Part shown: one piece after another, positions 21,819 through 24,065 of the stretch
Position numbering within the stretch: position 1 is the first letter of the stretch
How the letters are laid out: every line of letters begins with the position of its first letter
DNA from: a virus
DNA length: 24,544 nt
IMG/VR virus record: IMGVR_UViG_3300042549_000333
Coordinates: 1 to 24,544 of that record
Direction: 5' to 3' (one strand)
Notes under the pieces: generated by a model
What the model was told of the DNA's origin: nothing
The model's input: the letters and a program-made list of their open reading frames with translations, nothing else
The model's database searches: none
Translations under genes and position numbers: made by a program

Positions 21819-21997
21819 TAGTACATCCCCGTCTCTTCTTTCTTTAGCTGCTTCTTGTAGCCGTACTTGCCGGACTTCTTGTCCTCAGCCATGTACTCTT
21901 TAGCTACCTTTGCAGGGATACCTACTTTCTTAGCGAACTTAGGTGAGTTGGCTGCGGCACGCATAAACTGCGCTTGGGCTTTCGATACGCTTGGCAT
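21818..21997 (-). CDS. Small basic phage protein, 59 aa
   Basis: Short gene held between two one-base TAATG overlaps. The product starts MPSVSKAQAQFMRAAANSPK, continues FAKKVGIPAKVAKEYMAEDK and ends with a Lys/Gly/Tyr-rich tail. The pattern SKAQAxFMRAAANSPKFAKKVGIP is widespread in small phage proteins of unknown role, often near terminase genes. It is basic and probably helical. The clear family pattern and exact fit between neighbours make it a real gene despite its size. Confidence 0.8.
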   Translation of the reverse strand: MPSVSKAQAQFMRAAANSPKFAKKVGIPAKVAKEYMAEDKKSGKYGYKKQLKKEETGMY

Positions 21998-22650
21998 TAT
22001 TCCTTTTCCTCTATCGCTTCAGCCATGTATAGGCTGTCGTAAATCTTGCGGGTTGATCCCCAAAACTGTTTGGCAAAGATGTGTCCCTCTCCCTTGTATT
22101 CCTGACCCGTAAAGTGTCTAGGGATAAAGTAGTGGGATGGGTAAATGGTTAGCCCGTATTGGAAACGCTGCCAAATGTCCGTAAGCCTTTGCGGTCCGAC
22201 TGTCTGCCAAGCAGGTCTGTCTGTGACGGTTTGCTCGGCGTAAATGTCTTCGATAATTTGTCCAATGAAAGGACTGCTCTTTTGCGCTGCAAGGTAGCCA
22301 GCCGCCAATAGTCCAGGGCGTTGATGTTCGTTCTCCCAACAAGTGAACTCGTTAGCTTGCAACATCCAATCCGGTATGGGCTTGACGCAGATACTATCCG
22401 CATCCACCGCAAACCCGCCATGCTCGTACAGTATCTCGTACCGCATAAGGTCAGCTACACCGTTTAGCTCTACCTTCCACATATCCTGTAGGTGTTTGGC
22501 ATTGCGCCACGAGGTCTTTACTAAATCCTCGTTGCCCCAAACTTTAATATCCCAATCAGGATTATGATTGCGCCAAGTATCAATACAATTATCAGGTCGT
22601 TTAGATTCATCGCCTACCCAAACTATATGTAGTTTCTTAGGTATCACCAT
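21997..22650 (-). CDS. Glycosyltransferase, GT32-like (DxD type), 217 aa
   Basis: Typical start of the Gly_transf_sug/GT32 group (IPKKLHIVWVGDESKRP), then CIDTWRNHNPDWDIKVW and the core GVADLMRYEILYEHGGFAVD with the metal-binding D83-A-D85. GLLAAGYLAAQKSSPF and the late PAWQTVGPQRLTDIW complete the family pattern. Such enzymes transfer a sugar from a nucleotide donor in capsule or lipopolysaccharide synthesis. The size, about 220 residues, fits the soluble bacterial and phage members. It overlaps the GT2 gene by 7 bp, so both probably work on the same acceptor. The acceptor is unknown. Confidence 0.85.
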   Translation of the reverse strand: MVIPKKLHIVWVGDESKRPDNCIDTWRNHNPDWDIKVWGNEDLVKTSWRNAKHLQDMWKVELNGVADLMRYEILYEHGGFAVDADSICVKPIPDWMLQANEFTCWENEHQRPGLLAAGYLAAQKSSPFIGQIIEDIYAEQTVTDRPAWQTVGPQRLTDIWQRFQYGLTIYPSHYFIPRHFTGQEYKGEGHIFAKQFWGSTRKIYDSLYMAEAIEEKE

Positions 22651-23249
22651 ACACCTTGTCGTTTCATGTCCCGTATTTCCTCCGACTTAGCCCTTGCGTT
22701 AACTGTGGCAAGTGAGCCAGACGGACGGCTGTAGAAATATCGAGGTGTCATATCAAACTTGACGGATGCACCAGCCTTGCGTAAATCTAACCAAAGCGCC
22801 CAATCCTCCCACCCGACATTACGGTATGGATGTTTGAGCAACAATTCTCGTTTTACAGCGGAGGACACAATAAGCGGGTTTTGAGCGTTTATTTCCAAAG
22901 CCACGTCCCATGTATAGGGATCGGGATTCATGCGCCCACCACCCTCTATATCAAGCGCAAAGCCTATTATGTCGTGGACACCATCCACACCATCGAAATA
23001 GTGTGTGTAAGGTACATCGTCTATATCCGAACACGATACATAATCGCCCGTAGCCACTTGGATACCTGCGTTCCTAGCTAGACCTGCGTGCTTGGTCGTA
23101 TTGATAACGACCCTGTGCTCTGTGTCCAACGGTTTGTCAGACACAATAATAATCTCAGGCTTGCCGGAGATTGCGGTAGCGGCTTGTAGCCATTGCTTAC
23201 CGTATGTCTCCCAGTAATTGCCCCAACATATCGTAACGATTGTGTGCAT
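22644..23249 (-). CDS. Glycosyltransferase family 2-like, 201 aa
   Basis: GT-A fold glycosyltransferase: MHTIVTICWGNYWETY is the first strand and nucleotide loop, GLARNAGIQVATGDYVSCSD contains the approach to the DxD (D75-I-D77), and GWEDWALWLDL carries the expected catalytic Glu-Asp pair (E148, D149). The frame is open upstream to a TTG at 23285, but the family N-terminus and an ATG are at 23249, so I use that. The only Shine-Dalgarno-like sequence (GTGGGG) lies within the 3' arm of a hairpin directly before the ATG. It is first in the tight gene series that runs to the left edge. Confidence 0.85.
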   Translation of the reverse strand: MHTIVTICWGNYWETYGKQWLQAATAISGKPEIIIVSDKPLDTEHRVVINTTKHAGLARNAGIQVATGDYVSCSDIDDVPYTHYFDGVDGVHDIIGFALDIEGGGRMNPDPYTWDVALEINAQNPLIVSSAVKRELLLKHPYRNVGWEDWALWLDLRKAGASVKFDMTPRYFYSRPSGSLATVNARAKSEEIRDMKRQGVW

Positions 23250-23273
23250 AAAAAAATCCCCACAAGAGTGAGG
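23250..23273 (-). terminator. Attenuator-like hairpin with U-tract before the GT2 gene
   Basis: In the minus-strand RNA CCTCAC and GTGGGG pair around a TCTT loop (6 bp, one G.U) and are followed by A and seven T, ending at the GT2 start codon. This has the form of an intrinsic terminator. It also hides the only ribosome-binding-like sequence of the GT2 gene. It could end transcripts of the 52-residue gene, or reduce or switch expression of the downstream block. Confidence 0.65.
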
Positions 23274-23326
23274 ATAAAGAACCAAGGAGATTGAGGCACG
23301 TTTTCAGAAAACACTACCCCGCACAA

Positions 23327-23491: not shown

Positions 23492-23596
23492 TGTTGTCTC
23501 CAGAATTAGGTGTGGGTTTCCATAAAGCAGGATCGAGATCAAAGAATTGGGTGAAGAGTGCGAGCGCCCGCCAAGATGCTCATGTTTTTCATACCC

Positions 23597-23617
23597 ACTA
23601 AGCCGCTAACGCTTAGT
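23597..23617. repeat. Perfect 7-bp inverted repeat
   Basis: ACTAAGC, a 7-base spacer CGCTAAC, then GCTTAGT. No T-run follows on either strand, so it is not a terminator. It may be a protein site or an RNA stem in the leader of the 52-residue gene. Confidence 0.6.
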
Positions 23618-23719
23618 ACCCACGCAATAAATGTACCACAGGATAACTAACAGTTTTTACTATCGCTAACCCTAGTATTGTTAGTGTGCATTATCTTGAG
23701 TGATAGTCTCCCCAAGGGT

Positions 23720-23748
23720 GGTAAGCGTGTAGTTTCCTACGCCTTACC
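23720..23748. repeat. Long imperfect hairpin
   Basis: GGTAAG-C-GTGTAG, loop TTTC, then CTACGC-CTTACC: 12 paired positions with a single bulged C. In plus-strand RNA the odd pair is U.G; in minus-strand RNA it is C/A, although the loop there would be GAAA, a GNRA type. The strand is therefore undecided. No U-tract follows. Confidence 0.65.
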
Positions 23749-23758
23749 TGCCTGACCC

Positions 23759-23783
23759 ATATATACCTGTAGAGATATATACC
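23759..23783 (+). repeat. Two direct copies of ATATATACC, 16 bp apart
   Basis: The copies are at 23759-23767 and 23775-23783. The 16-bp centre distance places them about one and a half helical turns apart. Two copies are too few to call iterons; they may be a binding site pair. Confidence 0.5.
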
Positions 23784-23962
23784 AGTCCTACACGGAGTTA
23801 ATGTTCAATCAGCATAGGTCTTGTCCCACCATGTCCCTATACCTTGTGCCGTACCCATTTAAGTCGGCGAGGCTTGCTACGGGGTGTACGTTAGCCTATG
23901 TTCTATTCCACGCAGCCCATGTAGGCTCTTGCTATCGTGTGGAGTACGGATGGTTAAGAAAC

Positions 23963-24053
23963 AAAAAACCGCTTAAATCTGCATCTTGGTGAGAGACCCC
24001 CTTGTGAGGGGCAAGATACAGACTTAAACGGTCTAATCGGCTCTCACACCAAC
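23963..24053 (-). ncRNA. Candidate ~90-nt small RNA with 21-bp stem and U6 end
   Basis: A TATAAT box lies at 24065-24060 on the minus strand, so transcription would start near 24053. The RNA would then contain 24032-24012 paired with 23988-23968: 21 consecutive positions, 18 Watson-Crick and three G.U. A small inner hairpin CCCC-TTGTGA-GGGG (24011-23998) sits inside, and TTTTTT ends it at 23963. The three odd positions pair only in the minus-strand transcript; in plus-strand RNA they would be C/A mismatches. A 5' GTGAGAG segment (about 24048-24042) could also pair with CTCTCAC in the interior loop, making a pseudoknot. No known RNA family is recognised. It could equally be a long terminator for an unknown upstream minus transcript. 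Confidence 0.5.
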
Positions 24054-24059
24054 AACTGA

Positions 24060-24065
24060 ATTATA
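24060..24065 (-). promoter_or_regulatory. Consensus -10 box of the small-RNA candidate
   Basis: TATAAT on the minus strand matches the sigma70 consensus exactly. The hexamer 17 bp upstream (AGGTTT) is a poor -35, so activity may need an activator. Confidence 0.4.

Follow-up and report, generated by a model that had tools for sequence, protein, structure and literature searches.

The window analysed here, a stretch of 24,544 nucleotides, represents the 24.5-kb record of a virus akin to Methylophilales phage Venkman, with which its terminase shares 65% identity, and carries a compact structured element on its minus strand, at positions 23963-24065. Read in the direction of this strand, the element begins with the -10 hexamer TATAAT (24060-24065) and continues with a 5′ hairpin (P0, 24036-24053), in which a 6-bp stem (GUUGGU/GCCGAU) encloses a GUGAGA loop. 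There follows a long stem (P1) whose two 21-nt arms (24012-24032 and 23968-23988) form 21 base pairs with exactly three G·U pairs and zero mismatches, enclosing an apical CCCC/GGGG hairpin (P2, 23997-24011) that appears in the fold and differs among relatives. The element ends with a U6 tract (23963-23968). The hexamer, the stem with its three G·U pairs and the U6 end are all as the original prediction from the sequence described them; the P0 hairpin had been overlooked. The 5′ code GUGAGAG (PK5, 24041-24047), displayed in the P0 loop, is the exact complement of the 3′ code CUCUCAC (PK3, 23989-23995), located by a complementarity scan in an internal loop immediately 5′ of the P1 3′ arm.

The minus-strand RNA has a predicted minimum free energy of -43.9 kcal/mol, where shuffled sequences average -22.4 +/- 3.3 (z -6.57); the plus strand reaches only -24.3 (z -1.99), with the stem interrupted at the three G·U positions, which bears out the strand asymmetry suspected from the letters. 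A G+C stem (ACCG/CGGU) followed by U6 gives the element a predicted intrinsic terminator. The proposed promoter stands in part: TATAAT is exact, but a recognisable -35 is missing from the window element, although several relatives have one, and a promoter scan gave no minus-strand promoter there despite the hexamer. The Rfam comparison recommended at the outset gave zero matches of the element at the gathering threshold and only chance-level ones below it; a mir-5595 match at a relaxed threshold was discarded as chance. No tRNA or tmRNA was detected in the window.

A new phage RNA family supported by covariation

Scanning for exact matches to a single stem arm recovered 22 viral loci, and looser scans added L104-L106, L111 and more contigs among L169-L176. 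Relatives occur in more than 20 other phage contigs, and the element is single-copy in every searched phage record having it. A divergent member in the podovirus genome ctn9Y15 (MW202674, 4966-5113, plus strand) was reached via its downstream RNA, and is matched by an element model that counts it among its training sequences. Four loose-pattern matches (L107-L110) were rejected as chance. A degenerate two-arm pattern was not found in a collection of 84,980 species genomes, and the element model matched none of 294 genomes of one family, a weak negative that lacks a positive control.

The window element belongs to what we call type A, in which the order along the RNA is -10 hexamer, 12-15 nt, P0 with the PK5 loop, short junction, P1 5′ arm, P2, PK3, P1 3′ arm and U5-U8. 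All type A members possess -10-like hexamers at this constant spacing (12-15 nt) from the 5′ arm and code, some of them forming part of a complete sigma70 promoter, as in L011 (TTGACA-17-TAGAAT), and a tract of at least five U ends every member. In an alignment of 19 members, standard pairs fill 97.4% of the pair cells, 17 of the 33 pairs have changed on both sides (shuffles gave 6.1, and 0 of 500 reached 17) and the covariation score is 0.342, compared with 0.167 for shuffled and 0.06-0.08 for slid alignments, these values being pair counts rather than R-scape statistics and not fully corrected for relatedness. In P1, 98.2% of cells are paired and nine pairs have changed on both sides, the compensatory changes that the original prediction had set as its check. 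The P0 stem also covaries (GUCGGA/UCCGAC, GUCGAG/CUCGAC, GUUGCA/UGCAAU). In relatives, G-C, C-G or A-U pairs take the place of the G·U pairs of P1, a pattern that only an RNA of the minus strand would be expected to show, and model scores are 56-110 bits on the RNA strand versus 22-31 bits on the opposite one. The G·U/Watson-Crick alternation and the two-sided changes thus sustain the early view that selection acts on a minus-strand RNA and not on a DNA site. The locus nearly certainly encodes an RNA, which constitutes a new phage RNA family outside all known RNA families tested; our literature search returned only loosely related papers, none describing it.

Three phages close to that of the window (L030, L031 and L035, terminase 94-97%) carry at the same locus an element, type B, whose P1 sequence is unrelated to that of type A and whose plan is alike, running from a promoter and a 5′ loop through a long stem and a complementary apical loop to U6. 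It comprises hairpins at the 5′ end, a 6-nt loop, a P1 of 18 bp that includes two G·U pairs, an apical hairpin with a complementary 6-nt loop and a U6 tract. Support for type B comes from the code and the apical stems, since P1 is invariant among the seven sequences of its alignment. Types A and B thus stand in for each other at one locus, each occurring with different downstream RNAs.

A hypervariable self-complementary code

The GTGAGAG/CTCTCAC match, initially put forward as a pseudoknot or an alternative fold, turned out to be the most informative feature of the element. PK5 and PK3 are exactly complementary in 24 of 24 elements compared, with 18 distinct codes of 6-10 nt; these arms had been selected as complementary, and dealing the 3′ arms at random gives a mean of 2.0 cognate pairs and a maximum of 9. 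A longest-match scan without preset arms put PK3 right next to the P1 3′ arm in almost every type A member. Near-identical codes excepted, non-cognate codes pair mostly over 2-5 nt. Code evolution far outpaces that of the remaining element and proceeds almost in isolation: between the window element and L010, 4 of 14 code positions differ and none of 89 others, and between L030 and L124, all 12 code positions and 10 of 142 others. Some codes (GUGAGAG, GUGGAAG and GUGAGAAA) recur among phages with differing flanks. The leader region contains no additional copy of the longer codes, and second copies within the same phage stay at the chance level.

Downstream RNAs and genomic surroundings

In every flank checked, the same strand enters, behind the U-tract, one of several unrelated noncoding regions that look structured. 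In the window, this region (23543-23958, minus strand) precedes the first late-side gene, folds somewhat better than shuffled sequences on the minus strand alone (z -2.26, plus strand z -0.80) and has a conserved core in common with ctn9Y15; it is probably a second undescribed structured RNA. Absent from the window, the Betaproteobacteria-1 RNA (RF02932) follows the element on its strand at 15 or more loci, separated from the U-tract by 9-80 nt; no promoter was recognised in this gap in the two loci scanned. The element itself never matches RF02932, only the neighbouring stretch does. A third kind of downstream region, containing CCGUGGGAGU, is found in L136 (1750-2150), L017 (2330-2700) and L170 (upstream of 1452) and has no Rfam match, and L016, L106 and L111 present further kinds. 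In most phages, late-side or replication genes then come on the strand of the element. A free RNA between divergent units, as first envisaged, is therefore an incomplete description: the RNA itself is strongly supported, but because its strand runs on into other noncoding RNA, the element would also be the promoter-proximal leader or attenuator of a longer unit.

The Betaproteobacteria-1 RNA also exists without the element. It does so in Burkholderia-group genomes, with a promoter-like GTATAC just upstream; in these genomes (L138-L156) up to two scanned copies per genome are followed by a repeated GGGGCAT-like word. In Acidovorax phage AP1 (L157, 5001-5085), it lies within a gene block, again without the element. 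Several other features surround the element in individual phages. Two glycosyltransferase-like genes adjoin it on the late side in the window (21997-23285, minus strand), and a tRNA-Thr (TGT) stands immediately upstream of it in L003 (4302-4377, plus strand). Another related phage has a group I intron match at the Rfam gathering threshold (L045, 11889-12147, plus strand). Direct repeats (GTCACGACTTAT, ACCGGT) between the divergent units of L035 (880-1390) and L013 (near 300-420) are possible iterons or regulator sites.

A possible self-recognising RNA switch

As a tentative explanation, and the one that we prefer, the element may be a phage RNA switch, an attenuator that releases an RNA of ~90 nt and recognises its own kind, like the P4 CI RNA and IsrK. 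Transcription would begin immediately behind TATAAT, and the 5′ hairpin would display the 6-10 nt code in its loop. Once the complement emerges, the nascent RNA would pair code with code, thereby holding the P1 5′ arm in a loop, until the emerging P1 3′ arm allows P1 to zip, oust the code pairing and terminate with the U6 tract. If the code pairing lasted, or if a molecule of the same code interfered, transcription would read through to the downstream structured RNA and, usually, late-side genes. The terminated RNA would expose both code arms in loops and might act in trans on sister transcripts with the same code.

Predicted nascent folding is consistent with this sequence of events: just after PK3 emerges, code pairing is the minimum free energy structure in 17 of 18 members, and P1 supersedes it some 6-16 nt later, an outcome that is partly a consequence of the arms being complementary. 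In the predicted complete RNA, both code arms are largely unpaired. Code pairing and the complete terminator stem thus appear to compete in these models. In type A, PK3 abuts P1 and the P0-P1 junction is short (a few nucleotides in most members); from A-form geometry we infer that one molecule can accommodate the full 21-bp P1 together with the code helix only if several P1 pairs open. The predicted alternation between P1 and code pairing, together with the unpaired arms, favours a switch that either terminates at ~90 nt or reads through, and the exposed arms and the fast concerted change of the codes suggest recognition between molecules, as in the P4 CI RNA and IsrK.

Other observations weigh on the opposite side. 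P1 is far more stable than code pairing (-43.9 versus -23.5 for the full window RNA with the code helix enforced), so that read-through would have to rely on kinetics or on a factor. The second code copy behind the element that P4 seqC would predict was not found, and a search behind the U-tract for an antiterminator complement gave no significant result (only L045 and L030 at 0.01-0.05 among 18 tests). The absence of any codirectional gene within 3.9 kb behind the element in L020 also speaks against a switch. An extension of the same idea, which we regard as unlikely, is that the code is an RNA identity mark: the released RNA would recognise nascent leaders of the same code and turn their late unit off (or on), leading to superinfection immunity or incompatibility and to code diversity through frequency-dependent selection.

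The L020 locus is easier to reconcile with a free-standing stable small RNA, a rather less probable explanation than the switch, in which code pairing would be an ordinary tertiary contact, either a kissing loop or a pseudoknot, that gives shape or protection to a molecule with targets in host or phage or with a protein partner, the downstream RNA being independent of it. The promoter-like -10 and terminator-like end of all complete members, the single copy per phage and the geometry of type B, whose two 6-nt loops suit an intramolecular kissing contact, agree with it; diversification of the code alone, and the close downstream structured RNA devoid of a recognised promoter of its own, would be left unexplained. 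The same-strand noncoding RNA found behind the element in the examined flanks, combined with the terminator-like end, could alternatively mean that the element merely serves a longer noncoding or late-leader RNA as its 5′ domain or as a leaky terminator, with codes that drift neutrally in a compensatory manner. We consider this doubtful, since neutral drift predicts mismatched intermediates and changes elsewhere, neither of which is seen in the window/L010 and L030/L124 pairs, and since the element alternates with type B and is joined to downstream RNAs of several kinds.

The two exposed, complementary and phage-specific loops of each molecule recall the interlocking loops of phi29 pRNA (PMC5340915) and could let a structural RNA form multimers by pairing each loop with that of the next molecule. 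This is nevertheless quite improbable: the Rfam pRNA model is unmatched, and the window, a genome fragment, shows a weak Terminase_6N match (just under the cut-off) and an SU10-type portal, with no phi29-type packaging ATPase seen. That the element is a DNA site (origin, packaging or binding) which happens to be an inverted repeat is hardly credible, as the G·U positions, the opposite-strand scores, the kept -10 spacing and the U-tract all indicate a one-strand RNA, despite the nearby repeats between divergent units in some relatives (L013, L035).

In the models considered here, the element has the appearance of a self-recognising RNA switch. A phage RNA family not described before, whose covariation is unusually clean and whose complementary code changes fast, would make RNA-based self-recognition between phages open to direct test. 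It also ties the Betaproteobacteria-1 RNA, an orphan, to transcription units of phages.

Comparison with known phage RNAs

Several known RNAs resemble the element in part. The c4 antisense RNA (RF01695) is also a phage-encoded small RNA with a conserved scaffold, but the element does not match its model and no antirepressor target was identified. Phi29 pRNA (RF00044) shares with it two complementary, phage-specific loops; unlike pRNA, the element has neither that three-way junction nor an RF00044 match, and no phi29-type packaging motor was seen in the window fragment. The Betaproteobacteria-1 RNA, which adjoins it on its own strand in 15 or more relatives, is a separate RNA.

The closest parallels are found in leader RNAs. 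The CI RNA of satellite phage P4, with its seqA and seqC sites, provides a phage precedent for the control of termination, conferring immunity by premature termination; like the element as proposed here, it involves a promoter-proximal untranslated leader, complementary segments and an RNA product (PMC4825925). P4 CI, however, arises by processing of the leader and has pairing sites to either side of it, whereas in the element the complement of the code lies inside the same short RNA and a seqC-like copy was not found. IsrK, of prophage Gifsy-1, has a short form that arises at a Rho-independent terminator, the read-through of which gives a longer RNA (PMC4825925) including a second stable RNA; this longer RNA is the target of the short form. 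The element differs from it by the absence of a sequence match in Rfam, by the nature of what follows (a structured RNA, often Betaproteobacteria-1) and by its hypervariable codes. A target copy outside the short RNA on the same transcript, of the kind used by P4 CI and IsrK, was not found in the leader region for the longer codes. With these differences, the architecture of the element fits that of a leader small RNA of the P4 CI/IsrK kind, and it would most likely work like known phage leader RNAs.
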